A stretch of 64,000 nucleotides of DNA from Rhododendron vialii. Taxonomy: Eukaryota > Streptophyta > Magnoliopsida > Ericales > Ericaceae. The notes under the pieces are model-generated. The model made no database searches and was not told where the DNA came from. It worked only from the letters and a program-made list of their open reading frames with translations. The stretch covers positions 23,955,501 through 24,019,500 of the forward strand of contig NC_080568.1 of NCBI RefSeq assembly GCF_030253575.1, read 5' to 3'. Below, in pieces: positions 3,656 to 44,755 of this stretch (positions within the stretch are counted from its first letter, which is position 1; each line of letters begins with the position of its first letter). The position numbers and the translations under genes are program-made.

Positions 3656-5029
3656 ACAGGCCTGGATTTGTACAGGGGTGAAGATAGAAGATAGAGTGGA
3701 AGGTAGATAATTGTAACTTGAGAGATTAAAACCTGTTCATTCTTTTCAAAATTGTAGAAATTACCCAAAAAAAAAATTTATTGTACTTTAGTATCTCGGA
3801 GATCAATTTAGTTTAGTTGCTTTTTCTTGACATGAGTCTTCCTTTTTCAAATTGCTTGACATTTTCAAACAAAAAAAGTCTTTCTTTTCAATTGGAGTAG
3901 GTAATCAGTTAACTTATGGGGACCATATTTTCTGCCTCCATAGCCTTATCAATATAGATATCAACCACTACAAACTTGCAAATAAAACAATACGTCACGA
4001 AATATTCCATGGGTGGAATGGAGATCTCCATCCCTCGCCGGATCCGCATCCTCTCTGTTCCATGGGTGGAATGCAGATCTCCGTTTCATTTAATGTGGAG
4101 CCAACACCGCAACTATATTTGACCTAGGAAATTTGAAATACAAGACTGTGTGTTAGTATTCATACTCTAATTTTCTTGAGCCTGGGGATGATTTTTACTA
4201 AGCCCTGTGGAGTGTTAAGTACAAATACTATTATTTGTTGTCATCATTTGCTTAGAACAATTTACTTACTTCGTTATAATCGTTGAAACAGGATTTTTGT
4301 GTTTTGATTATTAGGATAGACGATGCTTGATACAGCAATCAAAATCGATCTTTATTAGAGCTCAACAAGAATATCGATCATACCAAAAATCTTATGGATC
4401 AGATACAAATTAGTTCCTCATCCAAATGCATTTATCTTTCATAAAATTAATTCGACGGGTTTGATGCATTCAGATGAGGTATTAGTCTTTTGTCAGATCA
4501 ATTTGATTTCTGCCATAATGGCTGGATCCAGACATTAGGAAAAAACCCAGGGTTAGGTTGAACCAAGGCCCAACTCATTAAGAGTTTTTACCTTGGGTTC
4601 TTCCATGATACGGAGACTTGTAACATCAGTTTTAGTTGATGTTTTCATCTGAGTTCTACAAAATGAACGATCCTAATCATTGGAGTGAACTTGAAAAATG
4701 AACGATCCTAATCATTGGAGTGAACTTGACACGGGCCCACAAAGGGGAAGCTGCACACTGCAGTCCCCTCAGTTCCACTGTGGGGACAGCTGAGAAGCCG
4801 CATCCTAAAAAATCTCACAGAAAATTCACGCATTAATTAAAAATCCAGAAACACCAATATAATTCCATAATATCACAGCAACATTCATCACAGTAAACAG
4901 CGGGATGTCTAATTTCCTACTCTTCTACTAAGACAAGCTAAACCACCACCTAATTCATACTGGTTTTCTCCCAACAAAAAAGGAAGAGAAAGAAGGGGAA
5001 AAAAACTAACCGAAGACCTACGACAACTT
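3656..5029. other. Intergenic region with small duplications
   Basis: This is the 3' flank of the formin plus about 1.3 kb without a gene. A 25-bp segment beginning TTCCATGGGTGGAATG is present at 4006-4030 and again at 4058-4082 with one mismatch. The 91-codon frame at 3852-4127 spans these copies and has no recognisable content. Confidence 0.55.
4661..4729. repeat. Two-copy 35-bp tandem repeat
   Basis: A 35-bp unit starting AAATGAACGATCCTAATCAT is repeated head to tail at 4661-4695 and 4696-4729 without an internal mismatch, so the duplication is recent. Confidence 0.9.
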
Positions 5030-11787: not shown

Positions 11788-12163
11788 CAGTAATGCTACA
11801 CACACAGCATTTATGCACAGATTTGTTGTGGGGCCCACTACGGGTCCCACACAAATAATCCGAGCCGTTCATTAAATGTAAAACATTTTTTCAAGGGCCT
11901 CCACGAAAAATCAACTTAATCCGATACTTAAAGATGCTCGATTCAATCATTTAACTTTTCATTCGAATTTCAGGATAATGAAAAGTTAGATGATTAAATC
12001 AAGCACTTATAAGTATCGGATTGAGCTGATTTTTTGCGAAGACTCTTGAAAAAATGTTTTACATTTAATGAACGGCTCGGATTATTTGTGTGGGACCTGT
12101 AGTGGGCCCCACAACAAATCTGTGCTCAAAATCTATGCATAAATGTTGTGTGTGTAGCATTAC
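11788..12163. mobile_element. TA-duplicating foldback MITE, copy 1
   Basis: A 376-bp element inserted in the Stowaway copy, flanked by TA (11786-11787, 12164-12165). The ends CAGTAATGCTACACACACA and TGTGTGTAGCATTAC are inverted repeats, and the pairing continues inward through GTGGGGCCCACTACGGGTCC and GAGCCGTTCATTAAATGTAA. A sister copy is at 59836-60186. The intact Stowaway at 43501 provides the empty site (ATCATTATACC). Confidence 0.85.
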
Positions 12164-13200: not shown

Positions 13201-15156
13201 GTGACATTTTCATTAATGATAAATGTATTTTTGTAAAAGTGAACCTAATGGTAATTAAGTATTTCATCTCTCCTTAATGAGAATTAAGTTTTACTTTTCT
13301 GTAATTAGAGGTAAAAATATCTTTTTTACTAGTTTGGCAATCAATTTTTTGTCTTTCCAAATTCTTCTTGAAAAGAGGAATCGAAATGGTAAATTTTTTT
13401 GGTAGACGGTTAAAATAAAACGAAAAGTACCTAGGATAATATTCTATTTACTTAAAGCCTATTTGGTTACTTCTGCTTATTTGTTTATTTGGAAGAGTCT
13501 TTTTGGTATCTTTTCATTTTCGGTGCATTTTTACTTTTGTCGATTCCTCCTTACAAGACAAATTAAAAAAAGTAGCAAATTATGTTGGGGACATGTTAAG
13601 AGAGAATCTATTAATAAATAGGAACATTCCGAAATTACTTTTACAAAACAAAAAATGAGCCAAAATATAGCAAAGCCAATTTGGCACCCGAAATAACTCC
13701 AGCCATTTGCACCACGCTAGTGTCATTCAGTGACAGAATTTAGCTGACAGGGGAGTTCTTTGGACGTGGTCCCAATCCCGACGGACGTATGGACAGTATT
13801 TGGCTTTGGCCTTAGTTTGGCTGTAGCGCGTTGGAGATGACAAGCCGAAAGGCCATTTTTAAGATGCTGGAAATTTGGCCTTTTTTGGCTATGGCTTTAG
13901 CCATAGCATTGGAGACGCTTTTATGTTTATTCGTTTAAAAAAGAATAAAATAAAGAAAAATAAAATAAGATATTGAATCTTGTAGCTACTTCTTCTTCTT
14001 TTTTGTGTGCAATTGGAGGTGTTTTGATTACATTCTGATATACGTACATTTTTTGTTGTGTAAAAGTACTCAAAATATTTTAGTTTCCCCATTTTCATGA
14101 ATTTTTTTCTGTTTTTGTTTGAAGGGTGAAATTTTAAGTACTAATCTCCCAAAATCAATGTGTTCATTAAGTAATAAGTAATAATTTGACAATACCATCA
14201 TCATCCATCCAAGCCATGATCGATTAGTGCGAATTGCATGCTAAGAGCCTATTTGCCAACGCAGTATAGTGGGAGGTTGATCAGTCGGAATGACTCTAAC
14301 GCAGCAGAATTCACGAGAGACTAGTTAGCATACTAGTCTAAACGAGATAAACAACTCGTCGCAACGAGTAAATCTTGCGCACAAAAAAGAAAGAGAAAAA
14401 CTCTGCAATATTATTGATTTAAAGCTTAAAAGTTGAATAGGTTACAGTATTTTTTATAAGACCCTAACCCTAGGAATTCTAGTAAAAATAAATCTTAAAT
14501 CATGCCAAACAAGTGGCATGAAAGAAAAGATATTTTCTATAGTAATTAATTAAAATAAAATCATAATTCTTGTAGATCAAAAATCCTAATAAAAGTAGAA
14601 ATTAAAATCAAACCGAATACGAAAAATTAATAATTATACCTAAACAAAAATATTTCTAGTAAAAATCTTATTCTAATGCAATAGAAATAAAATAGAGAAA
14701 CATCCCAATCTTGTCCTACATTAGACTCGATCAACCCTCACTCATTTGCTAATGTGGTATGGAGGGAGGCTGATTCATCTGTCTGAATGACTCGTTCGAA
14801 CCCGCCCTTATTTGATGTTTACTCGCTCGGATCCTCCCTCATCCGATGTTTGGCACCTAGGTGAGAAGGGAGATGACTCATCTGCCTGGAAGGTATATCC
14901 CAGATAAGGGGGACCCGAAAACATATCTTGCTCGTATATAATGCGTGTTGTAATTTGGTTTGAATTATTACGGCTCGTTTGTCAGGCGGATAAGGTTTCG
15001 GAATAGAAAGAAAGGTGGATATATGTACAATGAGAGATTAGCAATAGAAGGGGAAGCTTATACTTGGTTTGAGAAGTAGTTGATATGTGATCGTGTCGTT
15101 TCCGTATCAAAAATAATTAATAAAACAAAATAGTTACTACTACCTAAAAGATAGAG
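13201..15156. other. Gene-free, eroded repeats
   Basis: No gene was recognised. Fragments such as GGCTTTAGCCATAGCATTGG near 13885 and the two ATTTGC...GTATAGTGGGAGG / GTATGGAGGGAGG words near 14250 and 14755 suggest old transposon debris. None could be delimited. Confidence 0.4.
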
Positions 15157-16091
15157 GCAAGTATTCCGAGTATCATCCTCAGGGATATGAAGGCTAAGTT
15201 GCAGTTATTTCAATCGATTTCTAAATTAATTCGGAAAAGGATTTGATTGTTGGATTTCGAAAATATTAAAAGCTAAATTAAATTAGAGCAATTAAGAAAT
15301 AACGAGAGTTTATGAGAGAAAAGATCTAGGTTTCGAATCCACTCGACCCGTTGTAACAATATTTATGCGATGATAAAGGTTAATTATTCGAATCAATCCG
15401 GATATCGTTAGGATTCGCGGGCCCTCACAGTATCGCTTAAAGATATTTATGAATCACTAAATAGCATGGGGTATCGCTACTTAGCACGAACCGTCTTACT
15501 AGTACGACCCGTCTCTATGGTACGGATCGTCTAATAGCACGGCGCGTCTTACAGAGCATAATTCATCTTACTTAGTAATCACAAACAATTAAAAACCGTT
15601 GTATGAACGTGCATAAAAATATAAAAAATCATACACAAGATTTGATAGATAAAATTAATACCGCAAATAAATCCTCAAGTCATACAACCACGATTCGAAT
15701 AATAAAAACACTAAATCAAAATATAAAAATCGTTACTCAAAATTCGAGTTTCATCTATACCCTAAAAACGAGTTTAGCCAGACATCGGAGTTGAAACTAT
15801 CGAAAAGTTCTGTTGAAGGCTGACATGATAACAAAAGTTTACACGCAGCCTCTGTTTTCAGATTCAATCCGTGGCCACCTCCTCTTTTTCTTCTCTGTAG
15901 TGCGTCCCCAAAAGTCCCCTTTTAAAGTGCTGTAGCCGACCCTTTATATATGTCGTCGTAACCGACCTTCGGTAGCAGAATTAATTTAGAAATTCAACAA
16001 TCAAATCATTTTTCGAATTAATTTAGAAATCGATTGAAATAACTGTAATTCAGCCTTCATAATCCCTGAAGATGATACTCGGAATATTTGC
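15157..16091. mobile_element. Element with about 100-bp terminal inverted repeats
   Basis: The left arm (15157 to about 15257) begins GCAAGTATTCCGAGTATCAT and the right arm (about 15991-16091) is its inverted copy, with over 85 percent identity by eye. The 935-bp unit has no transposase. Inside are repeated CGTCT words (ACCGTCTTACTAG, ACCCGTCTC, GATCGTCTAATAG). Long arms fit a Mutator-like or foldback element, but no target-site duplication was found. Confidence 0.65.
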
Positions 16092-18265: not shown

Positions 18266-18808
18266 TACAAGGAGAGAGGCTCCTATATCCTACTCCTAGA
18301 GTATCTGATACACATGCTGAGTTCTTCTAAACTTAACTTATTTTTTCATTTTGTGTATTTTGCTCATCTTTTTTGAATTTTTATTAGATTCATGTGATTT
18401 TTCTTGATTAATCATCTATCTCGACGAGAGGAGTCTAAAAATTACAAAAAAAATATTACTCACACAACAATTCAAACACAATAATTCACACAACCTTTCA
18501 AATACATGTGGGCTTTACACATACTACTATTTGTGGGCCTCAAATGGATGTGAGTTATTGTGTGAGTAGCATTGTTAAATTAATTATGACCAAAAGCAAA
18601 AAAAAATTCATTAAAGACGAAAAAAATATAAGTATCACACAACTGTCTTTTGGAACTTAAGTGTCATCTTATTTGAACCCCATTTTCTCCATAGTTTTCC
18701 TCTTATACATTTTCTCTTCTCTTTGCTTTCCTTCCGCAATTTACAAGCAAAGCCATAAGTTTAAAAGAAGGCCACCACAATCTCCAATTTCGGACGGAGA
18801 ACCCTAAT

Positions 18809-19870
18809 ATGGCATCCTCATCGCAATCTTCTCTTCCTCCCACCGAGAAATCTGTCTACGTTCGAGCAATTAACAGCGACTTCGACAACGAATGGTATTC
18901 CTTCCCCCTTAACGGCCCTCCTTACATACGCGATGGAAAGCGAAAACGAGGTCTTGGTCGTAGGAAGCGAAAACGAGGTATTGGTGGTCGTAGTCTCCCG
19001 CTTCTCACCCCGCTAAATCCGAAGATGAATTCTCTGTTTGCCAGCTTTGCAGTGGTCGACTCCACAATATACAGTATTGGAGGTAATTCCCCCGGCATGG
19101 ACACTGCTTGGGAGGTCTACCGTGAGGTCTGCAGTTGGGATACGAGCCGTGTCGAAGAAGAATCCTGGGAGACAAGTCCTTCAATGGGCGGTGCTAGATC
19201 CATTCCCCAAGTGGTTACGCTGAACGGTATGATTTATGTGATGGGTGGGATTAGTGGCGAAGATGATGGTCCTCACCCATGGGCCGAAGTTTTTGACCCC
19301 AAGTCTGGTTCTTGGAGTTCCCTCAATCAACCTTGTCCAAAGCCTTCGTTTGGCGGATCCTTTTCCGCGGCTCTGCCTAGCACCAATCAGGTGTTAGTGG
19401 GATCAGCCGTAGATGGATTCATTTGTTTATACAACGTAGGATCGAAAACTTGGGAGCATTTGCATCATGAGATTGATTGTCTTCCCTCCTCAGATGAGCG
19501 CCCGGTGGTAGCAGGCACAACTTTGTTCTGGTTTCAATACGGCATGCTTCACGCCTATGATTTGCTCGGGAAATGGAATTATTCAGCCCCTGTAAGGGGC
19601 TTGGAGGATGTTGTGCCGCTAGAAGTGTTCAAACCGGATAGTGGTTGTTCCTCTTCACAGTTGCTTTGTCTCGCCGACAATGACGTCTGTTTGGTTTGCT
19701 GCGAGTACTCAAACACCAAAAAACATCTGGGTCTGCTTCATTGCATCAGAATTTCCGTTTCACCAATTATTTTGCGCGGTCGCAAGGCTCACTTTGATGC
19801 CGTTGTTGCAACTTCCCAAGCTTATTTCTTCAAAATGCCGCGTGCAATCCGTGATGCAGTGCTGATGTAA
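18809..19870 (+). CDS. Kelch-repeat protein
   Basis: The frame gives 353 aa from the first Met, which follows a 5' leader ending CCCTAATATGG. At least two kelch blades are clear: SFAVVDSTIYSIGGN (about 79-93) with a following Trp, and VVTLNGMIYVMGGISGED (about 135-152) followed by AEVFDPKSGSWSSL. Later repeats are weak. There is no F-box at the N terminus; instead a basic patch KRKRGLGRRKRKRG (44-57) arises from a 27-bp tandem duplication. Plant kelch proteins of this kind often act as substrate-binding or scaffold proteins; the partner is unknown. The last codons read CTGAT|GTAAGT, a perfect splice donor, so the gene may continue: an acceptor-like ATGATGCAG|G at 23029 would splice in frame. 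If so, the apparent stop at 19868 is intronic and two hAT elements lie in the intron. The single-exon model is equally possible. Confidence 0.75.
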   Translation: MASSSQSSLPPTEKSVYVRAINSDFDNEWYSFPLNGPPYIRDGKRKRGLGRRKRKRGIGGRSLPLLTPLNPKMNSLFASFAVVDSTIYSIGGNSPGMDTAWEVYREVCSWDTSRVEEESWETSPSMGGARSIPQVVTLNGMIYVMGGISGEDDGPHPWAEVFDPKSGSWSSLNQPCPKPSFGGSFSAALPSTNQVLVGSAVDGFICLYNVGSKTWEHLHHEIDCLPSSDERPVVAGTTLFWFQYGMLHAYDLLGKWNYSAPVRGLEDVVPLEVFKPDSGCSSSQLLCLADNDVCLVCCEYSNTKKHLGLLHCIRISVSPIILRGRKAHFDAVVATSQAYFFKMPRAIRDAVLM

Positions 19871-21024: not shown

Positions 21025-22619
21025 TAGAGGTGGCAAACGGGTGGGTTTGGGTGGATTGAAATGGGCCGTGGGTTGAATATGGTCCAATAGTAGGCAGGTT
21101 GAATATGGATGGGTCAAATATGGATAAGTCAAACCCATAAAATCCGACCCGATCTCGTTTCCCCCCATCTTCCCCCAATCTGATTTGAGAATACACATTC
21201 GGTTTTACCACCCAAAATTGGGCAACGTGCCCTTAACGATTTAAGAACATTCACCACCTTGTAGACGGTCACATATGTCGTTGAGTATGCTTTAGTTGCC
21301 TTTCCGGGTTGATTACGGAGTTATCTTTGTGTGTCAAGTGCATGCCCTTTGTTGTTTTAGTGTATTGAATCATTAGTTGCACAAAGCGGGAGCGGGAGCG
21401 GGAGCGGGTGCGGGTGCGGGTGCGGGAGCCGAAGCGGGTGCGGGAGCGGGAGCGGGAGCGGGAGCGGGAGCGGAAGCGGAAGCGGGAGGGAATATAGAAG
21501 CTCCCAAGGTTGGGAGCGTGTACATATATTATGAAAATAATGTAGCATAGAGTATTCAATTTAAAAGTACAATCATTTTTGGAAGTAACAATATGGGCCA
21601 AGTCCTCCATAAGTGTAAGAAATGGGCTAGTATTACAATACTATAATATGATTGTCTTTTCAATATATCATGACTTGGGCTAGATAAATGAGTTCATCAA
21701 AGACCAATTAATAAAGCCAAGTGATAAATTTCTGTTTTTCTATATAAAGATCATACAAAAGCTCCCATCTTAATGGGATCGGGCTCCTGTCAAGTTCCTT
21801 AGTTGGGAGTGGAAAAGTGGGCTCCCAAGGTGGGAGCGGCACTACTTTAGGAGCTCTTTGCAACTTAGATTGAATGTCTGTAATTCAATCCGCGGATCCT
21901 CTTTCAATATCAATGACATCTATCTTCAATTCAAAAAAAAAAAAAAAACTTCACCAAAACAAACTTTCCAAAATATCATAAGGCAAGTATTTTAAAAGCA
22001 TAGCCTAACCTATGTTCTTTAATTCCTATCAACAAGTATTGGTATGGGAAAATTGAGTATTGAATCACATTCAAAAATGCAAATAAAGGAGAATCCACCA
22101 CCCGTTGACACAGTTGGAACAACCCAATTTATTCGTTCGTATCCTGTATATCCATTTACATATGAAAACCCTAATACATATACCCATTCGCATGATCCAT
22201 GTGAATTGAAAATTTGGATTGAATTGCATGCATTTCTTTGTCTTTCTATAGTTATGAATATTTGCAATTAGGTTTGTAGGAGAGGAGAGAGTCGAAGGTA
22301 ATGGTCGTTTAAATCCCAATTCCCCATCCTCTGTCTTCTCTCGGTCTCTTCAACTTGCTAAAGAAGAGAGAGAGGAGGTTAAGACGTGTGAGACAGAGGT
22401 TAGCTGATGAATACAAGGAATGAATAATGTTGAAATGATGTATTGCCCACCCAAGGTCCAACCCATTTTAGACCCATTTTAAACCCATTCGGACCCGTGT
22501 ATGTGTGGGTTGTGGTTTACACATTTATGCCCCATCATTCAATATGGGTGAATTTCGGTGGGTTTTAAGTGGGCGGGTATGAATGGGTTCATGGGTGGGG
22601 TTGAAAATCGCCACCTCTA
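21025..22619. mobile_element. hAT-like element with TAGAGGTGGC ends
   Basis: The left end TAGAGGTGGCAAACGGGTGG and the right end GAAAATCGCCACCTCTA form short inverted repeats, with GGGTGGGTTTGGG-like and GACCCATTTTAAACCCATT-like subterminal repeats. This AGAGGTGGC end is common on plant hAT elements. The duplication is not clean: TAAATATT upstream and TAAATCTT downstream match at 7 of 8 but leave 5 extra bases on the left. A (GGGAGC)n hexamer block lies inside. Confidence 0.65.
21386..21487. repeat. GGGAGC/GGGTGC hexamer array
   Basis: About 17 hexamers, mostly GGGAGC with several GGGTGC and GGAAGC variants. On the minus strand this gives apparent Arg/Ser- or Pro/Leu-rich proteins, which are artefacts of the repeat. 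Confidence 0.92.
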
Positions 22620-23624
22620 TAAATCTTGTATCAAACAATAGGCAAATAGGATTGATTTTCAAACTTTTAACTGGCTGAATTTTCTAAGAACTGGATGATC
22701 TTGGCAGCAATCCAATCTCAGTTTCAGGGTTAAGTTGAAGGTCAAAAGCTGGACGCCATGGCGTTGAGCTATCCTGGGGCTGTGAACCATGTCCTGAGAA
22801 CATGCTATAGTTTTCGTTGTTAGGGGTGGGGTTAAGGTTTTATGGTGATTACATGTGGCTACTAGAGTATAATTCATGGTAGAAATTTTAATTCTCAAGT
22901 GCATGTAATTAGTTTCCCATTTCATTATCGATTGGCTAAAGATCTTAAAGCTCTAAGCATACCCGAGTAAAGGCCACTTGTAAGCCATTTGCGTAGATGT
23001 AAACGCATGTTCATTTTGCTATGATGCAGGAGTTTCACCCATGGAAGTGGTATAGGTTGTGGGTTGTGGTATGTATTTTCTTTTAGTAAATTGTTCTCTC
23101 CTTTCAGATTGTTTTTTTCTTTTAAAGTTTTGTGTATGTTATTTGCTTGTTGATGTTAATAGATCCAATATTGTCTCTTTATAAATATATAAGAGTGCAA
23201 ACATATCTGGTTCTTTCAAATTCCCCTGATTAGTATTCTTAGTTAACGTGGAATGTAGTTCATTATGAAAACTATTCAGGGTATTGGTTGGATAGAAGAA
23301 GTAATATTACTTGGTGCTTTTTAGTGGTGTAATAATCAGAGGGAAGATAAGGTTTCGATTTGGGCTTGCACTGCATTGTTTTCTTTGCGGTCTTGTCTTT
23401 GGTAACATAGATTTATATGTTTGAGCTTTTTAAAAGGGTAGTGATAATGCTAAAACCCAATTTGTTGCTACCAAAACTCCCACTGAAATTTATAATTAAA
23501 AATGACTTTTTTGTCCTCTAAAATTCTAATTTATCATTCAATGCCACGATCCCTTCTTTTGTACTATTGCTACTTCTCCGATTCTATTGATCTATTCTCT
23601 CATCATTTATCTACCACTATCTGC

Positions 23625-23813
23625 TAGTGTTCTAAAAGGCGGCCGCCTAGGCCAATTAGTCCCCTTCTAGGTGCTAGGCGGTGGTCTGATGACTAGATTA
23701 GACAACCGACAAGTCGGGCGCCTAGTCCCCGCCTAGGCGCTCGGCGGCCAACTAGTCGGGGCCTAGGCGCCCCTTTTTTGCCCGACTAGCACCTAGCGAT
23801 TTTTACTACATTG
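23625..23813. mobile_element. hAT-like MITE, CCTAGGCG family
   Basis: A 189-bp element with ends TAGTGTTCTAAAAGGC and, from the right, CAATGTAGTAAAAATCG. Its flanks CTATCTGC (23617-23624) and CTGCCTGC (23814-23821) agree at 6 of 8. The body is GCCTAGGCG/GGTGCTAGGCGG palindromes as in the copy at 7108. Confidence 0.7.
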
Positions 23814-24928
23814 CTGCCTGCATTTCTACTCCAAACACCCCCAATTCTACACTACTCATTTCTCTACTTGCAAAGCAACTCGATTTGGGAGTTCATTTCT
23901 TTACTCGCAAAACCCAGTTAATTTATGACTTTGAAACTTGTTGTTGAGCTTGAATCTGGACAAAACCCAAAGACCATGTCTTTGTTGAAGCTAATTAACT
24001 TAGCAATGGAGAAAGCAACTTGTTCTTTCACCGATTTTGAGTTCTTCGGTCTACACAACCGATTCGAGCTTTGAAAATAGCTTCGATTTGATAACTAAGT
24101 CCTGTGAATAATTCACGATTCAACCCGAGAAGGTCATTAATGGCGGAGGCCATTAAAGACCAATCCAATTCGATTGAGCAGCGACTGGGGAGATTTCATA
24201 ATTCTTGACTTGACGAGTCAAGAACAATCCGAGCCTGTAAGAAGACTCCCTGGAGATTTCTTGGTTTAGAGTTTGAGAGGACTTTAATGGCGGAGGATGA
24301 ATGGTGAAGCGGGTAATAGAGCAGCTAGGGACTAGGGAGGAAGAAGAAACATTAGAAAAGAGGGGTCTTGCCATTGAATGATGGGTTAGGACTTAGGACT
24401 TAGGAGGTCAAATAAGTCATTCAATGGTAAATTTCATTGTTGAATTTTGGCAGCAACAAATTGGGTTTTGGCATTATCATTATCATTTAAAAAAGGTCGA
24501 TACGTATTTATAATCCTGTTGGTTTTGCAAGGTTTCCAAGGAAGGGTTTATTTGGGAAAAGATTCGGTGTGATCATCTTTGCTTAGTTGTTGTCTTATTT
24601 GAGTTAACCTGGAACTAAAACAATGCTTGAAAAAATAGCTGAGCAGCTTCATAATCTGGCATTATCTTTTCTGCATGGATTTGAAGTTACACTTGCACTT
24701 TGTTTGTACTTGTGTATGCACTAGTGTAGGCAGTTTTGAAACCTCTTGCTTATGCACTTGTGTAATTTGTGTGCAGCAAGAAAAATATCAAAGATTTTCC
24801 ACCCCACAGGACCCGACAATTAATTTTCAGTTTAGAGTACATTTATTTGAAGATGTCTTCTGAGGAAGGCAATGGACAACTGACGAGCAGGATTTTTCTG
24901 TTGTTGCTCTACACTTATTTATGCAAAG

Positions 24929-25997
24929 TCAGTCCCCTCAGCCAAAACTAAGACCTGTCATTCTCTTTCTTATCATATGCTTTGACAGTGGTACCAAGAG
25001 GTCAATCTCATGATTTGTTTTTTATTTAAACTATCAATGCATAACAATGTATGCGATCATTGTTTTCACCTTTCATGTCCCAGAATATCCAAGCTACTTG
25101 CAAAAGGTTAGGCTCTTTTTTAAGTAAAGTGGAAAGGTTATTCCCAAAGCAATAAAACAAAAGGATTAGAACAGGAGGTAGATAAAAAAAACGTTAAAAC
25201 ATTGAGACAAGTTCAATATTTATCAAAAAAATAGAATAGACAAGTACCCAAACATGCTCACAAAAACTTGCTTCCTCTTCACGTAAAACTCAACGAGGCC
25301 ATAATAAAACGTAGCAGAAGCTTGAGGTAGGATTACAAAAAGCTCCCTTTCAATTTGCATCTGATAAATCTAATCTATAAAATTAATGTAAGAACTAGTA
25401 GGTGACATTAGTGATTGAAAAATCGCGCCTAGGCGAGACAAGGCGTGAGGCGAGCCTGTGATGCCTCACAGTCTTGAGGCAAGGTTGAGTGAGGCGGGCG
25501 ACTAGTCGTGAGTCGAACGACTAGTCACGATGTGTGAGGTGACTTAAAAATCACGCCTAGGCGTCGTTAGGGAAAAAACGCGATCAGATCTTATATTCCA
25601 AAAAACGTGATCAGATCTTATCACATACCTCTCTGCTTCTCTCCTCTTCTTCACTCCTCTGCGGCGTCAAACGGTCATAGACAACCACCACGATCAGATC
25701 AAATCTCAGAGGTAAGATCAGATCTCTCTCCCTCCCTTTCTCTCTCTCGCACAGTTGCACGACCAGCCACCCACGATCTAATCTTGTTTTCTTCTTCTTT
25801 TTGCCGACATGGTGTGTGACTGTGTGTGTCTATATATATACATATGTGTATATGTGCTGGGTCCTTTTTTTTTCCAGTCAATCATCAATGTAACAAGACC
25901 TTTCTAAAGAGAAGCAGACATGGCCTACATGAATACTAGTACTTTACTTACTGAACTGAGTTTTTTATTTGTCTTTTATATGTTTACTAGTTAGTGG

Positions 25998-26029
<32 letters not shown>

Positions 26030-26052
26030 TCCTAGTTAGTGGAGTGTGTATA

Positions 26053-26085
<33 letters not shown>

Positions 26086-28165
26086 TAGTCAGTGGGAGAT
26101 GTGTTATACAGAGAGACCAGACAACAGAGTATATAAAAGTCCTTTACCCAAAAAAGTAGAGCAAAAATAGTCTAATAAACTTTTTTTAGCTAGTGTATTG
26201 CATATTTAGATCACAAGATCATTATTCAAACTTGAAATTGACATTTTTTATGCATTTTTAAGAATTTGACTAAATCGGAGCGATTTGCGATTCAATACAA
26301 TTCACGATTCGCAAATGGATTGTTTGTTATTATGCAATATGGTAATGTTTATTCTTGTTTTGATGGTAGGAGTGAATATTGGTCATTTATGTAGTTTATA
26401 TTTCTTTTTTTTAAATGCTCGCCTCGCTTGGATGAGGCTCTCGTCTCGCCTCACTTCAATGAGGGCTTAGTCGCCTCGCATATTTAAATCACTGGGTGAC
26501 ATACCAGAAAACTACATACGTGATCTTGATAGTGCGCCTTGGAATTCCTCTGAAAGTCAAACAAATTCATTTTCTTGGTTATAGATCCTTGTTGGATACC
26601 TCCAATGCCTAGGTTTTTTCTTCTTCGAACCATTGTATTTCAGCACTTGACGAAGATTAGGGTTTCCCGATCTCCTAACTTTTCGTTGCCAACCCAGCAT
26701 GTCAGTTGGTTGGGTGTTAAAAGGGAAGTAGTTGTCAAAGTAGACTGTGTTCGCCCCCCTCTTTATATTCCATCCAAGATCTGAAAAGATATGTCTGTCA
26801 GCTTCTGTCCAAAATAATGGATTATGGTATATATAAAAAAAAAAGAAGCCAATTCTATGCACACAATAAAATTACACTATGTTATAACTTCGCTCAGTTA
26901 GCAAAATATGAAATAATGAATATTAAGTAGGAATGTACCTCACTTCATTGACTAAAGCCACATAATTCACTAGACTACACAACTCATAGAACAAGTCAAG
27001 GGCATTCGGGAGCTGAGTTTTACAAGGGTTATTTGCAACATCATCTTTAACAATCTTCTGAAAGCCTGCCAGATCTTCTAACTTTCCTATTTTTAGACAA
27101 CATTCCTATTACCAGCAAATGATATGAAAATAGGAATGCTAAAAGATCTGGCAAGCTTTCAAAGGATTGTTGAAGATATTGTTGCAAATAACCCTTGTAA
27201 AACCCAGCTCCCAAATGCCCATGACTTATGAGTTGTGTAGTCTGGTGAATTATATGGCTTTAGTCGATGAAGTGAGGTACATTCCTAGTTAATATTCATT
27301 ATTTCATATTTTGCTAACTGAGCAAAGTTATAACTTTGTGTATTTTTAATTGCGTGCTAAGGATTGGCTTTTATATATATATATATCATAATCCATTATT
27401 TTGGACAGAAGCGGACATACATATCTTTTTCTTGGATGGGATATAAAGAGGAGGGTGGACATAGTCTACTTTGAAAACTACTTCCCTCTTAACACTCAAC
27501 TAACTGATATGTCTTGGTTGACAACGAAGAGTCAGAAGATGGGGAAACCCTAATCTTCGTCAAGTGCTGAAATACAATGGTTTGAAGAAGAAAAAAAACT
27601 CAGGCATTGGAGGTATACAACAAGGATCTATATCCAAGAAAATGCATTTTTTGACTTTCAGATGAATTCCAAGGCGCATTATCAAGATCATGTATGTAGT
27701 TTTCTGGTATGTCATCCAGTAATTCTTAGCCTGATACAAATTGAAAGGGAGCTTTTCGTAATCATGCTTGCGCTATGTTTTATTATGGCCTGAGCATGTT
27801 TGGGTACTTGTCTATTCTTTTTTTTTGGATAAATATTGAACTTGTCTCATTTTTAACATTTTTTATCTACCTCATGTTCTACTCCTTTAGTGTGTTTTAT
27901 TGCTTTAGGGATGACCTTTTCACTTTACTTAAAGAATAGTCAACCCCTTGCAACTAGCTTGGATATTTTGGGGCATGAAAGATAAAAATAATGATGGCAT
28001 ATTCTTATAAATGTGTGATCACATACATTATCATGCATGGATAGTTTAATGAAGACAACTTGGTAAGTCTTGCATCCATCATGTTTGAGATTGACCTCTT
28101 GGTACTGCTGTCAAGGCCTATGGTAAGAAAGAGGGACAAATCTTAGTTTTGGCTAAGGGGACTGA
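24929..28165. repeat. Large inverted repeat, about 1.05-kb arms
   Basis: The left arm is 24929-27094 and the right arm 27127-28165, with a 32-bp loop. Matching words include AGTCCCCTCAGCCAAAACTA (left) against the complement of TTAGTTTTGGCTAAGGGGAC (right), and GGTACCAAGAGGTCAATCTC, GACAAGTACCCAAACATGCT, AAAAGCTCCCTTTCAATTTG and CATACCAGAAAACTACATAC, each found inverted in the right arm. Pairing runs to the centre (CCAGATCTT). Without the hAT element at 25409 the left arm is about 1,072 bp, against 1,039 bp for the right. The arms differ by scattered substitutions and small indels. No gene is evident in either arm. Confidence 0.93.
25409..26494. mobile_element. hAT-like element inserted in one arm
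   Basis: A 1,086-bp element with a perfect 8-bp duplication GGTGACAT (25401-25408, 26495-26502). The ends are TAGTGATTGAAAAATCGC and, from the right, CAGTGATTTAAATATGCG. The subterminal regions are rich in GCCTAGGCG, GAGGCG and GCCTCGC words, linking it to the elements at 7108 and 23625. The opposite inverted-repeat arm reads GGATGACATACCAG, the unoccupied site. The middle holds GATCAGATC repeats and (TA)n/(TG)n microsatellites (about 26003-26086). No transposase was seen. Confidence 0.92.
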
Positions 28166-30581
28166 TTCATCCCAATTACACACCTCCCACCATCTCCATT
28201 TTGTCAATTAGGGGAGAGCAAATACCATTCTTGACTGTTTTCTACGTGTTACGGTCGAAAGTGGGTAACATGCATCATTTTAGGTTTTAGGTAGAATGAG
28301 GCGCATTTTTTCAAAATTTTATGCATCGAGTGTGCAATTTGGATAGTGCATGCTGTCACCTATTATAGGTGTATGTTACGCCTAAACAGAGTAACGTGAT
28401 TTTGTTTATTGGACAAGGTGGACACATGGTTTGCCGCTAACTTGGGCACTCCACTTGTGGCGTAGGGCTGACCTAATGTATAATTTCTCTTGTTAGATTG
28501 GAATTGAGAGTTCACATGGTTGATTCCATGAATTATGTTGTTTTATCTCCGAATTCAAGAAATCGAGCGCATTTCTAGCAATTTATGTTTGGTTACAGTG
28601 TCGATATCAAATTGTTAGTTTCAATATGGTATATGATCCTTAATTGTCTTGTATGGTTGGAATGGGTTCATTAGGTACAAGTTGTACATTACTCATAGTG
28701 GACAAAATTTTTGGAAAGGAAAAATAAATAAATGCCTAGGTATTGGAGTTCACATATACAAAGGGTGTGCTAGCACTCTTGCAGTGTGCTTTTGGAATAC
28801 ATTGAACTACTAATGGTTTATTTTTAGCTATGTTACGTGAAATCTTCAATATGAAGCACCTGTTTTGGTCAATCGACACTCCAGCATGGGTATGGCCCTT
28901 GGGATCCGTGTCCGATGTATTTAGTTGGACACTCAACTAGAAAACATATTTCGCAATTTGAACTATTCATAGAAATGCTTTATATGCATGAAATGCCCTA
29001 ACCTCCTAGTAAACACCATGTATCTTAGAAAACAAAAGAAATATATCGAGGAATATGAATATTTTGCGATGCCCCCGTGTCTTGAGAATCCTACACTTGA
29101 CACCTAACCGCACCTGATACTGAATACTCGTACCCGAGTCCATGTAATAGACGGTTAGAATTAGGGTTGTAGTGATCTAGCGTTATTCTCAACATCACAT
29201 TGAACTCACCTAGAATTTATGCATGCCCATAAAATATTCAAGTACCATACTTTGCGTTTATGAGCCAAAGTTCTAGCACAAGAAAGTTGAATTATGTACT
29301 TCATTCACTACAAACTAATTTTTGCTCTCTTCTTATTTGCATTCTCCATATCATTTTTGACAACCATGTCTATGGTAGCACTAGGATTTTTGCAAACCTC
29401 GTGGTGAAAGTGCCTCTCCATTGCCTTGTTTATTTGGTGTTATTGAGAAGCATTTGACCATCTTATTATGGTCGGTTGTTTTGTAACTAAATGCAACCTT
29501 TCGTATACATGTAGGGTGAGTTTTTTTTTTCAATCAGCGACAAAGCAAAGACATGTCTAAAGACCTCATGTGTCCATGTCAGATGCGTGTCAAACATGCC
29601 CAAAATATGTTTCCTATTTATTATTGTATTTTCCTTGTTGGACATGCTAGGGATATACTTGGACAAGTTGAGACACGTTAAGAGGTGATAATTAAATTTT
29701 TAATGGTTTGGTAATGAAATTTTTGATGGTCGGTTATGTTCAAATTTGTCATAGCTGATTAGTTCTTGAATATTTATTAGTGACTGTTGTGCTTATAGCC
29801 TTTCTATTGTGTTAATATCGTTTGTATCTTACATCCGAAATTTTATAAAAGTTATTTATTTTTATGTGAATTGTCTAATCTAGCTAGAAGGAATATAATT
29901 TTAAATATAAATATTCAATATGCCCGTGTCCTGATCTTTTAAGATGAAGTGTCCTTTCATACGTGTCCTGTGTCCCTATCTGTGCTTATAATTGGGACAT
30001 TAAGACTGCTTACTAATTTGTTCATCTCCTTTTGGTCAATTACATTGTGTTGTCTTGTTTACTTGTACAAATTATTGTCTGGAGTGCTTTGGCATATACT
30101 TTTGACTACTGACTCGACAGAGTTACTATTTTCATCTTTGTTGCACATTTAATACCTTTGTGGAGCTTGAGCATTTAGAAAGCTGCAGTATGCTGCGTTC
30201 ATTTTTCTTTCTTTTGGCAGCCAAAAGAGTTGCCACTGCATCGTTGTGTTTGTTGGTTTAAAGGTACTCTCTGTGCCTAGTTTAAATAATAGTACACCAA
30301 TGATGCTTGTCTACGCTACCTACCAAACATTTATGCTAACACATGTTATGAATATATGGGCTATTAGCTTGTTTGATTATGATAGTTATATACGTATCAG
30401 AAAGTTCCATTGGATCAAACGGAGTATTGTCTGAACATGCATCACTTTTAAGTGGAATAGGTATCTGTTTATTTCAAATTTGGATCAACATGAACTTTGT
30501 TTACTGAACCTGATTGATGGGAAGAGAGGAATGTATTGATTTTGCAAATACTCTTGATCGTCGCTTTTCTTAGAGCCAGGG

Positions 30582-30640
<59 letters not shown>

Positions 30641-33600
30641 GTTTTGCTGAAGCTGATTGTGGGTGTCCTGCTTTACCTATCCCTCATTTGAATGCTCTGT
30701 GAAGGATTTGGTGCTGCTTTTGAAGATGACTTCAGGTAGCTTAAAAATATTACGTCCGTGAACAATTTGTAAGACAATGACTACATTATTATGTATTAGG
30801 ACAATGACTATGACTATGTTTCTGTGTTGAATTATTAAGTGTAATGGAAGTTTAGTTGTGTTATTAGTCTGTCCCTACAAGTTAAGCACTGCGAATTCAT
30901 GTGGATGTCTTTGGTTAGATTTTGTCCTTGTGAGGTCACTGTTTTATGCGGCATCTATTCAAGCCAACTCCCTCCTGCAAAGTAGTAACCAATTAAGCAG
31001 TGGGCTGCAATAAAGATAATCAATTGAGAAAAACTTATTCAAGGATCAACGGTGAATAAGGTGTTCGTAGCAGCAGCCTGTAGTCTTTCAACACCTCAGC
31101 CAAATTGACCCTACACGTGGGGGAAAAAACAGTTGAGAATCACACCGAATCAAAATCTCTCCTTGCTTAGGCCAATTCTATCTTCATACAACCCCATTTT
31201 TTATATACAACCCTTGCCACTTTTGTACTTCAACTTATTTTCTAAATACAACCCAACTAAAAACAAAAACTTTCCCCAAAAAAAAAAAAAACTTCTCTAC
31301 CCATTCGTCATCCTTGCCGCCAGTGAAACTTATATCCATTCCCGGCCACCAAAAGAACATCAGGGCTCGGTGGGGAAACTAGTATTGACACGACTTGATG
31401 CAATGAAATTCGTACTAGTAGGAAAAAGCAAGAAGCAACCTATTTGATTAGAAAATAGAAAATGTGCTGCTGATGCCAAAACTGTTTTTGTTAATGCTAA
31501 AATTATAATGCATAAAAGCGTTGTACCTTGGGAAAATAGAAATTGGTCCCAAAAATCAAATTTAGAGGGGAAAAAAACCAATTGCCCAGGAACTAATCCC
31601 CTCCCCAGATCAACCTAATGTTTTTCATAGATGATCATAAATGATCTACACACCAAAATCCAAAAGACTCTCAGTTCGTGGCATCAAAGCAGATCCTGTG
31701 TTGCACCTGCACGGCTGACTTGGACATTCCATAACTTCATTTCTTTTCAGAGACCTGAGAGGATCCAGTATCTTTCAAAAATGATGCAACAAAACAAGAA
31801 GAATAATCAGGACCAAAACTATAAGTTTATCGAACCAATGTCTAGAACGAGGAATATGCATATTGCATTATACAAAATGTAGATTACAGAACTTCATCTT
31901 CTTCTACATATAGTTAAAACAACTAAATGCATATACATATTGATTTTCACACTACCTCTACAATACAAATAATAGGAATTAGGGGGGAAGATCAAGAGGG
32001 AGAAGAGCTAGTCAATGTAAACGAAAGCCATGAGCCTCCACCTCTTCTATATCATCTTCACATCTTTGAGAGGGAAAAACAACCAGACGAGAATTTCTCC
32101 ATGTTACTCAACAAGGGTACCTTAGGCCAAGCATTAGTACGATGGCGATATGCTCCTCCTTACTAAAACAATCTCTTCTTTGCTAGTGTATTGCCTTATC
32201 CACTAGTGTATTTCTTCTTCAGAGCTTATTCTGCTTCCCGCATTTCTTATCTTCAGCCAAAAAAATTCATGAATTCATTCGATCTCTGCGTAATCGCACC
32301 AAATTCTTTTACCTCTGTGTTTCTGGTCGATGGTGGTGCAGCTGGTGCTTATCCTTGGCACGCTCCTGCATTAAAAGAACCATGACATAAGTCCTTGTTT
32401 GGATGAAAAAAATTAAAAGACTTTTTCCGTTTTTCTATTTCATTGTATATTTTTTAATAACTTTCTATGGGAGGGAGCTATGTGAAGAGCAAATAAGAAC
32501 AAGAAAACAACCAATACAAAAGCTCGAAATTGTTTTCAGGGAGTGTACATCTTTTTCTCCATCTTCCTTATCTTCTTTCCCATTTGTTCCGACTCTTGCA
32601 AAAGCATATATCAACATCTTAGTTACTCACAAAGGTAAGTTTACTTAGTAATTTGAGATGAAGGATGCAAAGACCTGGAATCTACATAAATAACAAAAGG
32701 CCGATCAAACTTTCGTGAGCCAATATATGGTTTCGTGGATGTTATTCCACCGTAGACATTGTCAAAAAATAGGTTACCATATCATTCCAAAGATCCCAAG
32801 ATATTTCTGAGCAAGTCGTTCTTTAAGCATTTCACAGTAAAATAAGCCAAAATATAAATAACAGAGAACGAGAAACAGCTAAAGCTTACAATCACTTTAA
32901 CAATCTCATGAACAAAGCTAACAAAAGCTTTTGCTCAGTTTTGGCTCTCTCTTCCTATTTCAACAATGGCTCTGTCTATAAAACGGATTGCTACAAACTA
33001 TGCACTCGAAATTGAAGCTGGCTCATGCTATTTTGGTTCTCAAAAATATCCACAGAATACAACTACACCCGTATCACGAGGGCTGTAAATTTTTTAAGCA
33101 CCCAATGACACATACAAAATATGAAAACACCCAATTTCAGAAAGAAAGTAAACGAATAGGATGGAGACCCATCGTCTCACGAACTTCTTGACCCCTGGAT
33201 TTAGTCTTTATTGGAGAGTGTTATGCCTAAGGTAAATTCTGTGTCTGTTGTAGGTTGCAAAATCTGTTATATTTGGAACCATTTTGATTAGATACAGATC
33301 TCTTTTGTAATATAACAAGATTTTCTGGGTCAGACTTTCATTAAGGTAATATAAAAAATACACTATCGATATGTGTAGCACAAACTTCTTGTACAAGTGA
33401 AAAGGAGCAACTTCCCAACATAGTTTTTGGTAGACACAATCTGAGAATTTTCCAAGAATTAGAAGTGAACATGATATAAAGTCAACAAAACTCGCATATC
33501 TACGTATAGATAAATAAATCCAGAGTCAAACATTGTTCTCAAACATTTGCTAAGAAACTGCAATGTTCTCAAAGGACCCGGGTTAATATGACAAACAAGG

Positions 33601-34234: not shown

Positions 34235-37200
34235 CTTATCTAAAGAGTTTTTCGATATCGTGTGCCCTCGATAGAAACTTGGCATAGGAGTGGCTTTGAA
34301 ATTGAGGCTCTGTCTTAGCTTCTTCATCTCAGCCTCCTTTTCCTCGTGAGTCAACTATAGGATTAGGATTTTCAAATAGCCACACTAGAGATAATTCCAC
34401 AGTACAACATGAATGTATCTGATGAAAGGTTCCACAATTTATAACTAAAGTTATACCTTTGACTTTGAACTAGGGCGTGTTTTTTCTGCCTCTTTGGAAT
34501 ATGATTTTCCCTCCAGTTTCTTGACAAACAATAAGTAAAAGGTTAGCAAATTCTAGTACATGTACTTAATTCGAACTGCAATCACATCTAAATGATATTA
34601 AAACAAGTTATCAGATAGGGGTGGTGGTCAAGGCTAACCTCTTTTCTTTTTTCAGATCTCTCACTACTTCTCATGCTGAAAGATGGGGCAGGCTTTGCAC
34701 TCCTGTGATCCATACCAGCTCCTTTTAGTGACCTGTTCTTCATAAACCGACATGATTGAGGTTTCAGGAAGAAGACTTAACAGCACTTAAAAGTCAATTT
34801 ACATGTAGAGCACAAAATAAACATACAAAAACTCCTTTCATGCACAAAATCTTGATAACAAGCTAAATGACAATTTTATCAGCAGAATAAAAAGCTAGAG
34901 TTATGTTGTACACCATTATTTTGGTCTACGATTTGGAAGCATCAAAGAAGGACCCTCACACCATTAGAACTAGATTCATAAACACGTGGGACAATTCTGT
35001 GGCTTCCCAGGTTGAACAAGGAATATGTATGACACCAGACCCATAAATGTGCAGGCAAACAATATCTATTTAGTACCGGCCCAATCAAGGATGTCTATTG
35101 AGATATTTTTCTCAAAAGTATCTCTCTTTCTTTGATAACTCAAGGTGTTTGGGCAGCTTGAGCGCATGGACTGGCCCTATGGTACCAAGGAACACTAATA
35201 CCCTAGCGGATTACGTTTTGGTACGCACATTCGGTAATACTATGATACAATTCCACTCCGATATAGTAAATTTTGAAATCCAAAGTGATCCCCAAAGTTT
35301 TTCCAAAATATCAATTTAATAAGGCAAAGATCTAAAGAGAGAGCAAATTTTTGATGAGATAAAATGTAAAAAATTCCGTCAAGCTCTTAAAATGTTTTTT
35401 TGTATGGATAATTTGAAAAAAAAAAAAAAAAACCTTCGTCTACTAGATGTTTATCGTTTGAAGGAGCAAGTTCTAATTTTGCTATCAATTGAAGCCTACC
35501 CCTTGCATCCCACAATTTAGGCCCATGGTATACCAAGTTCCCCTTCTTCGTACCAGTATGATCTGCGCTTCAGGTAACATAAGACTAGCCCCTGAAAAGT
35601 TGATAGCATCTAGTTGGTTTCAAAAGAATCTTACCCGGCTGAGATAGTGTTCCAGCTTCTTCCCAGTTGAGCTCTATGAGCATCCATATTCTCTGCAGTC
35701 TTCCTTAATCTACAAATCAAATAGATAATTCACAATCAAAACTCATAGAAAAGTCAAATGGGCAACTCTCCGAAGCATTTCATTGTGAAAATAATTTCGA
35801 GGTATCATACATCTTCCTTAAACATTCAACTGGAAAGTCCTAATTATTTCCAATAAAGCATATAAGACAGATTACCCCTCTTTTTCCTTCTGAGGAGTCA
35901 AAGAAGTGGACAGCTTATGTTCTGGCATTGTAGTCGATACCTGCCCGAAAGTTTGGCATCAATGTTCCAAAAGTGGAAAGATTCAAATTCACTGCCAACG
36001 GCTTTATAAAAGCATAACTATAAGCAACAATAAACATCGCACAATGACCAACCTCCTTTCTTCTAGAAGATTTATCATCACCAGAAGCTCTTACTTGGGT
36101 GAAACTGTTTTGAAATGTCTTAAATGCTCGCTTAACAATGTCTTTATCCCCCATTTTCTCCATAAACAGCGACTTCCTGGGTGTGGTAATTGAAGTTGAA
36201 TCAGAATTTGCAGTACCAAGGTTAAGGGACATGTGCATCGATGGAGCGACTTTCTTGCTTTCTCCTGCATTAAGAAATTTGCTCCTTGGTGATGATGAAC
36301 TGTATGCATTCTTTGAAGATGACCAAGAGGCATTAAGCCCAGTAGAGGTTGGTGTTGGTTTTGATGTTTTGGGGGTGGATATTTCTGGAGATTTTTTGGG
36401 CAAAGGTGATGCTTGTTTCTTCTTTGTTCCTGGAAAACTCTTCTCCTTTTTGGACAGAATCATCTAAACGAAATATTGTGAAACAATGAGATTAAGAGAG
36501 ACACCACATAACCTAATAATTAAACAATCCATGCAGTCATAAATATGCTTAAAAAAGCTACTAACTTCACCTTTTGATATTTGTTTGATGCATCCAGTTT
36601 ATCGTTCTCCTTTTTCGAGGGAGTAATCTAAAACCAAATTATGAAAGAAAATGTGAGATGGTGGAAATCAAACCATGAATAACCTCTACGGTAAGAAGTT
36701 TATTTAAACAAGGACTATCTAGAAAAACTGATTACCTTAACCCTTTGAATTTTGTTTGCCGAATCCAATCTGATTTTCTCATTTTTGTTTTCCATAGTGT
36801 TTCCCCTCCCCTTCTCAAAGCTACTTGGTGGTTGGACTGGCGATTCAACCTCCACCTTGTCTTGAAATTCACTTACACAGGGATTCTCTTGAATCAAAAC
36901 AGGTGGCAATTCCCCTTTCCCCTCAAATCCATTTAGACGAGTTTCCTCTTGAACCAAAACGGCTTCTTCTGATCTATTCAGTTCAAGCTTTTCCATGATG
37001 GATAGAGTTTCCTCTTGAACCAAAACAGCTTCTTCTGATTTATTCAGTTCAAGCTTTTCCATGATGGATAGAGTTTCCTCTTGAACCAAAACAGCTTCTT
37101 CTGATTTATTCAGTTCAAGCTTTTCCATTATGCTATCCATCTCATCTTCCTTAATTCCATCAACTGGCAGGCTTTGACGCTCTATGGATATTGATGCATT

Positions 37201-37956
37201 CTCATTGGACTCATCAGATCGGCTTCTACTCGAGACTCCAATCTGATCAACTAGTTCAGCTTCGGCAGAGACTTGACCATTACTGGCTGTACCAAGTTTG
37301 GTATCAGTCAAAGAAGTGTTTCCAACATTTTCTTCACCATTTTGGCCAGCGTTTGTTTCCATTTGCCTCTCCTGCTCCAGTTGTTCAGCCGCCTTTCGGG
37401 CAGCAATTTTCTTGTAATGGGCTTCAAAGTAAGCCTTCTTCTGAGCTACCGATCCGGGAGTCGAGCACTTCTCAACTTCTTCTAAGTACTTATTTGGGGA
37501 AAAAGTTGACCATTTCTCCCACGAAAGTGAATCATTCTCAAACCTACCAAACGAAACTGATACTTCCAATGTAGTACTAGAGGCAAGTGATGAATCTCTC
37601 ATCTGTTTATATAATCCAAAATCAGCACAACTAGCGACGCAATCCGGAAATCATGCAATCAGGGATTGGAGATCCATCATTTAACTTAAAAGAAAGAAGG
37701 TACTTTTGGTGCAAGGACAAATCCAAAATCAGTGCAAATTGCCAAGCAACAAATAGAGTCAACTTAACAAACACCGACAACCACACACAATACATAAACT
37801 ATGCAATCATGGGTTGGAATCAATAACAAATCTAAACAGAAAGAAGATGATTTTGATGCACAATAATTTCAAAGGAATTAAACTACCGGGTCCGAATTCA
37901 CGGATGAAAATCGAGATATGGGTTACCTTTGGAGCTTCAACAATTGATTCACCCAT
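34235..37956 (-). CDS. WDL7: WVD2-like TPX2-family microtubule protein (3' end missing)
   Basis: Nine coding exons are resolved on the minus strand: 37956-37927, 37602-36736, 36632-36576 (approximate), 36463-36053, 35940-35876, 35709-35635, 34732-34639, 34519-34457 and 34354-34235. All use GT/AG and keep phase, giving 594 codons before an unresolved tail. Exon 1 encodes MGESIVEAPK; exon 2 has SFGRFENDSLSWEKW and KKAYFEAHYKKIAARKA, the N-terminal signature of WVD2-like 7-type proteins. Exons 8-9 carry the TPX2 domain (KLEGKSYSKEAEK; KLRQSLNFKATPMPSFY). These proteins bind and bundle cortical microtubules. The first exon is tiny and an upstream 5' UTR exon is likely at 38693 to about 38815. The Pro/Arg tail expected after FYRGHTISKNSLDK was not found. 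An alternative acceptor would start exon 9 at 34342. The symbol reflects best family resemblance. Confidence 0.9.
36941..37138 (-). repeat. 66-bp coding repeat, three copies
   Basis: Three head-to-tail units (36941-37006, 37007-37072, 37073-37138), each encoding SIMEKLELNKSEEAVLVQEE plus two residues. They differ by only a few bases (for example Asn-Lys versus Asn-Arg), so the expansion in this acidic, probably disordered linker is recent. Confidence 0.95.
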
Positions 37957-43939: not shown

Positions 43940-43971
<32 letters not shown>

Positions 43972-43975
<4 letters not shown>

Positions 43976-44345
43976 TCCGTCTCTCGTAAGGACCACCTTA
44001 TTTTAATAAAATGCGGACCTCCCTTTCCTGATTGAATTTTGATGATCCGAGCCGCTCAATATGTTCAGAACGTGATTTTAAGGGTACCCGCGAGAAATCA
44101 GCAAAAAAAATGACCAGAAAGGGCTTCATCCGAGCAGTTTTTGTTTGTTTTTTATCGAACGGTTCAAACAAAAAATGCTCGGATGAAGCCCTTCCCGGTC
44201 ATTTTTTTGGCCAATTTCTCGCGTGTACCCTTAAAATCACGTTCTGAACACATTGAGAGGTTCGGATCATCGAAATTTGATCGGAAAATGGGAGAAATGA
44301 GGAGGTCCGCATTTTAACTAAAATAAAAACTCCATCATTTGAGAC
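43972..44345. mobile_element. Foldback MITE, GAGCCGCTCAAT family, copy 1
   Basis: An inverted-repeat element of about 370 bp. TGCGGACCTCC...GATCCGAGCCGCTCAAT on the left pairs with TTGAGAGGTTCGGATCATC...GGAGGTCCGCA on the right, as do the inner AAGGGCTTCATCCGAGC and GCTCGGATGAAGCCCTT. It is preceded by a (TA)n tract and followed by (TG)n(TA)n, so its exact ends and duplication (probably TA) are hidden. Confidence 0.8.
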
Positions 44346-44349
44346 TGAC

Positions 44350-44390
<41 letters not shown>

Positions 44391-44392
<2 letters not shown>

Positions 44393-44755
44393 GAGTCCCC
44401 TTCTTATAAAGACTACCTTATTTTAATAAAATGCGGACCTCCTTTTTTTTTCGATCGAATTTCGATGATCCGAGCCGCTCAATGTGTTCAGAACGTGATT
44501 TTAAGGGTACCCGCGAAAAATCAGCAAAAAAAAAAAGACCAGGAAGGGCTTCATCCAAACAGTTTTTGTTTGTTTTTTATCTAACGGTTCAAATAACAAC
44601 TGCTCAAATCAAGCCCTTTCCGGTCATTTTTTTTGTCGATTTCTAGGGGGTACCCTTAAAATCATGTTCTGAACACATTGAGCGGCTCAGATCATCGAAA
44701 TCCGATCAGGAAAGGCGAGAAATGGGAGGTCCGCATATAAGGTCCTTACCTGAAG
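44391..44755. mobile_element. Foldback MITE, GAGCCGCTCAAT family, copy 2
   Basis: A second copy in the same orientation as the one at 43972, separated only by a (TG)n(TA)n tract and followed by another (TA)n tract. It shares TGCGGACCTCC, GATCCGAGCCGCTCAATGTG and the inner AAGGGCTTCATCC stem. The reading frames here are shadows of the repeat. Confidence 0.8.

Follow-up and report, generated by a model that had tools for sequence, protein, structure and literature searches.

A kilobase-scale inverted repeat with gene-like arms in Rhododendron vialii and a related palindrome at a collinear locus

Structure of the Inverted Repeat

We analyzed a window of 64,000 nucleotides from Rhododendron vialii (contig NC_080568.1, here C12, positions 23955501-24019500) and searched it against the genome, 532,647,506 bases in 13 contigs. 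Genes in the window encode a formin, a kelch protein, a cupin, which we take to be germin-like, and a family-8 glycosyltransferase. A further gene at 36718-37650, without a Pfam match, is presumably TPX2-like. Rfam at gathering scores and a tRNA scan gave no match anywhere in the window. Downstream of the kelch gene lies a large inverted repeat (Table 1).

Table 1. Features of the C12 locus and of the related C13 locus (window positions unless another contig or stretch is named).
Feature	Location	Strand	Basis or remark
Kelch-repeat gene	18695-19870	+	Neighbor of C12 palindrome; nearest relatives at C13 palindrome locus
Left arm, outer part	24929-25408	Gene copy on -	Inverted-repeat search, arm alignment, insertion ends
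Exon-like block (IERELF...)	25247-25357	-	Related peptides in C13, C7, C9
Target-site copy 1	25401-25408		Within outer left arm
Non-autonomous hAT-type element	25409-26494		Inside left arm; 8-bp target duplication, terminal inverted repeats
Left arm, inner part	26495-27093	Gene copy on -	Inverted-repeat search, arm alignment, insertion ends
Target-site copy 2	26495-26502		Start of inner left arm
Second exon-like block	26662-26844	-	46% protein identity to C13, 61 aa
Exon-like open frame A, 60 aa	26926-27105	-	Left arm; conserved in C13
Loop, 33 bp	27094-27126		Inverted-repeat search
Right arm	27127-28165	Gene copy on +	Inverted-repeat search, arm alignment
Terminal-exon block	27907-27957	+	Matching C13 frame ends in stop
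Three C13-collinear blocks	29415-29512, 29996-30167, 30457-30828		Right of palindrome
C13 palindrome, 2392 bp	C13 stretch (L040) 3773-6164 = C13:20755773-20758164		83% self-match

An initial annotation of this DNA had described a large inverted repeat with an insertion in one arm. Both were recovered, with a correction of the loop length, which had been given as 32 bp. A right-arm open frame (27097-27228) passes through the loop. Aligning the arms, as had been proposed, gave 884 identical positions in 984 aligned columns (89.8%) and 142 gap columns in a first alignment, which retained one extra base at the insertion join and contained 64 transitions and 36 transversions; a MAFFT alignment gave 88.3% over 985 columns. 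The claim that the arms have diverged and still pair from end to end also held: without the insertion, the 2.1 kb of arm sequence folds with -1356 kcal/mol, versus -474 to -500 kcal/mol for six dinucleotide shuffles.

Near-continuous palindromes elsewhere were shorter, reaching at most ~0.7 kb in a random sample of the genome (20 stretches of 10 kb, 200 kb in total) and at most ~0.8 kb in the rest of the window, there within a repeat array. A single one of the 20 stretches contained longer inverted arms (1.38 kb), which were separated by 4.8 kb. The initial annotation had argued against a MITE or foldback element, and in agreement with this, neither a target duplication nor transposon ends were found at the outer ends of the repeat, and close DNA relatives were not found elsewhere. 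A whole-genome DNA search with the right arm returned the two C12 arms only, and a search with the outer left arm likewise returned the arms only, apart from the hAT insertion. Since the right-arm search also missed the C13 locus described below, it speaks for the absence of close copies only.

The insertion in the left arm is flanked on both sides by the 8-bp duplication GGTGACAT, and its ends match each other as terminal inverted repeats. We take these features to indicate the hAT superfamily. The element is repetitive, with at least 66 matching genome stretches including itself (40 of 166 candidates scored). Among six relatives, two have exact 8-bp duplications and a third has a shifted one with one mismatch, while the ends of the remaining three were not placed in the flanks inspected. 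Because ~25952-26318 matches a different repeat set, the insertion seems composite. It is presumably one of the hAT-type MITEs of the R. vialii genome, sitting within the left arm and not identical with the inverted repeat.

Gene Content of the Arms and Distant Paralogs

The arms contain a series of exon-like blocks whose order, from the center outward, is identical in C12 and C13, even though not all blocks are open in every arm. Near the outer ends, a stop codon lies 129 nt before the end of both C13 arms.

The same gene occurs elsewhere without a palindrome. Linked tblastx matches to the C12 repeat were found on contigs C7 (E 4.8e-20, 3 kb examined) and C9 (E 8.4e-12, 0.8 kb examined). The blocks of the C9 copy run open, and the 3 kb of the C7 stretch contain no long inverted repeat. 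Exon peptides from C12 and C13 are 47% identical, and either is 31-37% identical to those from C7 or C9. Taken together, the exon-like blocks, the C7 and C9 copies and the stop near the C13 ends suggest that the palindrome is an inverted copy, truncated on the 5' side, of the 3' end of a gene, with arms that face each other head to head and each hold the last exons of this uncharacterised multi-exon gene. That the repeat arose when part of a gene was duplicated in inverted orientation had been suggested in the initial annotation and is borne out by these distant paralogs. The parent-locus search that it proposed was successful only in part, as the C7 and C9 paralogs are recognizable at the protein level and a close parent was not found, the right-arm search, which speaks for close copies only, giving no DNA-level match outside the arms.

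Pfam and PDB searches with the exon peptides gave no match at the curated cut-off, and neither database assigned them to a family. A cysteinyl-tRNA synthetase origin was considered and rejected, as the best match obtained, that of one arm peptide to Pfam DALR_2 (E 0.008), falls below the curated cut-off and a genome search with DALR_2 had no match.

Beyond the gene, the C7 region has two weak matches to the region right of the palindrome (E 1.5e-6, in simple-repeat-rich sequence, and E 0.011). Since the downstream blocks follow the right arm in C12 and C13 alike, these matches suggest that the original gene copy may be the one in the right arm. On C7 itself, one exon of the gene was found on opposite strands 26 kb apart, at C7:39324055-39324165 (-) and C7:39349950-39350069 (+), and a kelch relative is located between the two.

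A Second Palindrome at a Collinear Locus

When the exon A peptide was searched against the genome, five matching stretches were obtained, three in the C12 arms and two on C13. The two C13 matches lie on opposite strands, ~360 bp apart, and belong to a second palindrome. The corresponding C13 peptide, used as query, identified the C12 and C13 loci and none other at E-values up to 10. The check for dispersed copies that had been proposed thus yields two loci only, both in a collinear segment. The C13 palindrome was missed by the initial annotation because it lies outside the window, and it alters how old the C12 repeat is likely to be and what it probably means.

The kelch gene at C12 (18809-19860) is collinear with L040 2226-3638 on C13, and the palindrome comes next in both. 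Among kelch relatives, the two that come closest to the window gene both lie at C13:20.75 Mb. Of these, the one beside the palindrome has several in-frame stops, and the other (C13:20748152-20749191) is situated ~5 kb ahead of it. On the right-hand side, the C12 blocks correspond to L040 9449-10497 plus L045. The stretches 22661-23311 and 21759-21852 are out of collinear order, and part of the block 30457-30828 has another match at 15016-15314. The shared segment is short, as neither the formin nor the 36718-37650 gene is matched near C13:20.7 Mb and one block is misordered.

The palindromes also differ at their ends. No homology to C13 is detectable for the C12 arms over their outermost 150-177 bp, and the flanks are not alignable either. 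The case for shared outer ends therefore relies on similar distances and not on sequence: past the terminal-exon block, the outer end follows after 129 nt in C13 and after about 160-207 nt in C12. At the inner ends the two loci differ as well, by roughly 150-190 bp per arm, and the inner 150 bp of C13 have no clear match within the window.

Concerted Evolution of the Arms

A four-arm tree groups the arms by locus (support 100/100). K2P distances are 0.128 within C12 and 0.149 within C13, versus 0.62-0.65 between loci. Depending on the alignment, the arms are 88-90% identical within C12 and 83-87% identical within C13, and identity between loci is about 57%. The arms are thus closer within a locus than between loci, as in palindromes that undergo gene conversion. 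In the four-arm alignment, 844 columns are filled in all arms; 417 of them are identical, 236 differ between loci and agree within both, and 3 point to separate arm histories.

The C12 and C13 palindromes fold with -1354 and -1558 kcal/mol, respectively, and a hybrid made of one arm from each locus with -521 kcal/mol, which is at the level of shuffled C13 sequences (-564 to -578 kcal/mol, n=3). As both loci fold and the cross-locus hybrid does not, pairing has been kept, although free divergence of this extent would abolish it.

The substitution pattern bears on how pairing was kept. Concerted changes comprise 102 transitions and 134 transversions, versus 116 and 89 for changes within loci (p 0.006). 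Relatively fewer transitions among the concerted changes mean that stepwise compensation via G-U pairs, which we considered, is not indicated, and copying from arm to arm fits the data. Mismatches are spread evenly along the C12 arms (p 0.15), a distribution that is also compatible with a single event of such age. Along the C13 arms the spread is uneven, mostly due to one 50-column window with 20 mismatches.

Origin and Age

The available part of PMC7572368 places a whole-genome duplication, seen as Ks peaks near 0.65 in three Rhododendron species, at ~78 Mya. Arms of different loci are ~0.64 apart, which fits this peak. The Ks of the kelch genes of C12 and C13 is above it (1.13 over 276 codons, after one segment was removed to keep the frame and stop-containing codons were passed over). 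From these values, we infer that the segmental duplication is at least as old as the ~78 Mya whole-genome duplication. At the rate implied in the same source, within-locus distances of 0.11-0.15 would translate to ~13-18 My since the arms of a locus were last alike. The C12 palindrome is probably a very old structure, which has stayed foldable throughout its changes of letters.

The explanation that we favor, with somewhat more confidence than doubt, is a single inverted partial gene duplication that predates the segmental duplication, was kept at both loci and was homogenised by gene conversion. An inverted, 5'-truncated duplication of the 3' end of the gene would have set a copy head to head, downstream of the kelch gene. 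The chromosome segment itself would have been duplicated afterward, perhaps in the Ericales whole-genome duplication and perhaps earlier, and both descendants would have retained the palindrome. At each locus, occasional gene conversion between the arms could have kept them alike. Later events on C12 would include the loss of roughly 150-190 bp per arm from the center and the jump of the hAT element into the left arm. One origin is supported by the use of the same part of the gene, the location on the same side of the kelch gene, and the similar outer-end distances. Points against it are the outermost ends and flanks, which do not align between loci, the differing inner ends, the shortness of the shared segment, the kelch Ks above the 0.65 peak, and the second, opposite-strand C7 match 26 kb from the first.

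The strongest competitor, which we regard as unlikely without dismissing it, is that the same gene underwent two independent inverted duplications, one at each duplicated locus, which the rate taken from the available part of PMC7572368 would date to roughly 13-18 million years ago. Within-locus divergence is indeed similar at the two loci, its spread along the C12 arms is even, the outermost ends are without homology between loci and the inner ends do not coincide. Against two events, they would have had to hit the identical part of the gene on the identical side of the kelch gene at a similar age, and to end at similar distances past the terminal-exon block, in a genome in which none of the 20 random 10-kb stretches contained a palindrome of such length.

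Long inverted repeats are commonly held to be young and short-lived. If the single origin is true, an inverted repeat derived from a gene can survive beyond a duplication of the segment that carries it without losing its pairing, and C12 and C13 would together offer a natural test of gene conversion alone versus selection on double-stranded RNA.

Potential for Hairpin RNA

Like endogenous hairpin-RNA loci, the C12 locus has a long inverted repeat able to fold as extended double-stranded RNA, and any transcript through either locus would form ~1 kb of it. Either locus might be transcribed and its product processed, as the initial annotation had supposed for C12. In Arabidopsis, according to the available part of the review PMC12595863, 634 of 885 inverted repeats lie within 3 kb of a gene, with ~486 of those making 24-nt siRNAs, and about 68% are likely TE-derived.

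A second alternative, rather improbable in our judgment and a little more so than two independent duplications, is a hairpin-RNA locus under selection, in which Dicer-like enzymes cut the long double-stranded RNA and pairing itself is selected. It may be combined with a single origin and gene conversion. Pairing has been kept at both loci despite ~43% change between them, and IR71 of Arabidopsis, as described in the accessible portion of PMC12825306, operates likewise. The CpG ratio of the right arm (0.25) is the lowest or close to the lowest among 253 overlapping 1-kb windows in the analyzed window, which would be in line with this explanation, but the signal is weak when compared with 380 overlapping genome windows, where the C12 arms rank at percentiles 4 (right) and 18 (left) and those of C13 at percentiles 24 and 34. 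The lack of a transition excess among the concerted changes, the lack of a close DNA target elsewhere in the right-arm genome search, and the tolerated hAT insertion also argue against selection on pairing. That a kilobase hairpin of single origin, older than the whole-genome duplication, was retained for tens of My at both loci with its structure kept and its sequence almost free, as would be expected for a functional source of double-stranded RNA, seems doubtful to us.

Changes of C to T at CG sites amount to 11 of 40 in the C12 arms, a higher share than in seven repeat pairs elsewhere in the window, which range from 0 to 19%. Methylation decay was set aside as support, as the CpG ratio is unremarkable compared with the genome sample, the right arm excepted.

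Our literature searches found no report of the C12 locus, which is not proof of absence. Known systems share some of its properties. IR71, a ~3 kb inverted repeat for which 21-24-nt small RNAs are reported in the accessible portion of PMC12825306, is similar in that a long inverted repeat can give kilobase double-stranded RNA; in contrast, the C12 locus is a candidate described at the DNA level and has a related palindrome at a paralogous locus. Young MIRNA and siRNA loci that arise from inverted gene duplication (PMC3237417, as far as the available text goes) likewise have parts of genes head to head. The C12 arms differ from these in being ~1 kb long and probably very old, and in that the right-arm search found no close parent copy in the genome. 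Sex-chromosome palindromes with gene conversion between arms also have arms more alike than their age allows, but the arm identity given for them in the available part of PMC8981503 exceeds 99%, whereas the plant palindromes described here have ~1-kb arms with 83-90% identity.

Less Probable Explanations and Neighboring Repeats

The arms could also be two working gene copies that are divergently transcribed, an explanation to which we give very little credence. Pooled changes within loci in exon A affect 12 of 53 synonymous and 16 of 196 nonsynonymous sites (p 0.006), and exon A is open in the left arm of C12 and the right arm of C13. At each locus, however, exon A is broken in the other arm, by a frameshift through a 5-base gap in the C12 right arm and by a stop in the C13 left arm, and there is no room for upstream exons between the arms.

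A foldback or MITE-type transposon is at least as improbable. It would account for the inverted-repeat architecture, and shorter palindromic repeats are common in the genome, yet a target duplication was not found, the right-arm search returned only the two arms, the contents are exons of a gene, and the two loci are both in the collinear segment. An assembly artefact, for which we found no point in favor, is hardly conceivable, as the arms are ~10% different and the HiFi reads, with a mean of ~18 kb at ~60x in the available part of PMC10338486, are expected to span the 3.2-kb palindrome.

Other repeats were noted in the window. A 1.08-kb stretch adjoining the inverted repeat (23423-24498) has inverted ends of ~160 bp (76%) with CGCCTAGGCG-type repeats inside, and a clear target duplication was not found for it. 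The palindromic repeats at 11810-12122 and 59858-60170 are 85% alike in both orientations and probably represent a MITE family. A tandem pair of ~370 bp occupies 43945-44736, with an additional copy 8 kb off at 52603-52929, and a direct repeat with a shift of ~300 bp and 77% identity is located at 62107-63090.
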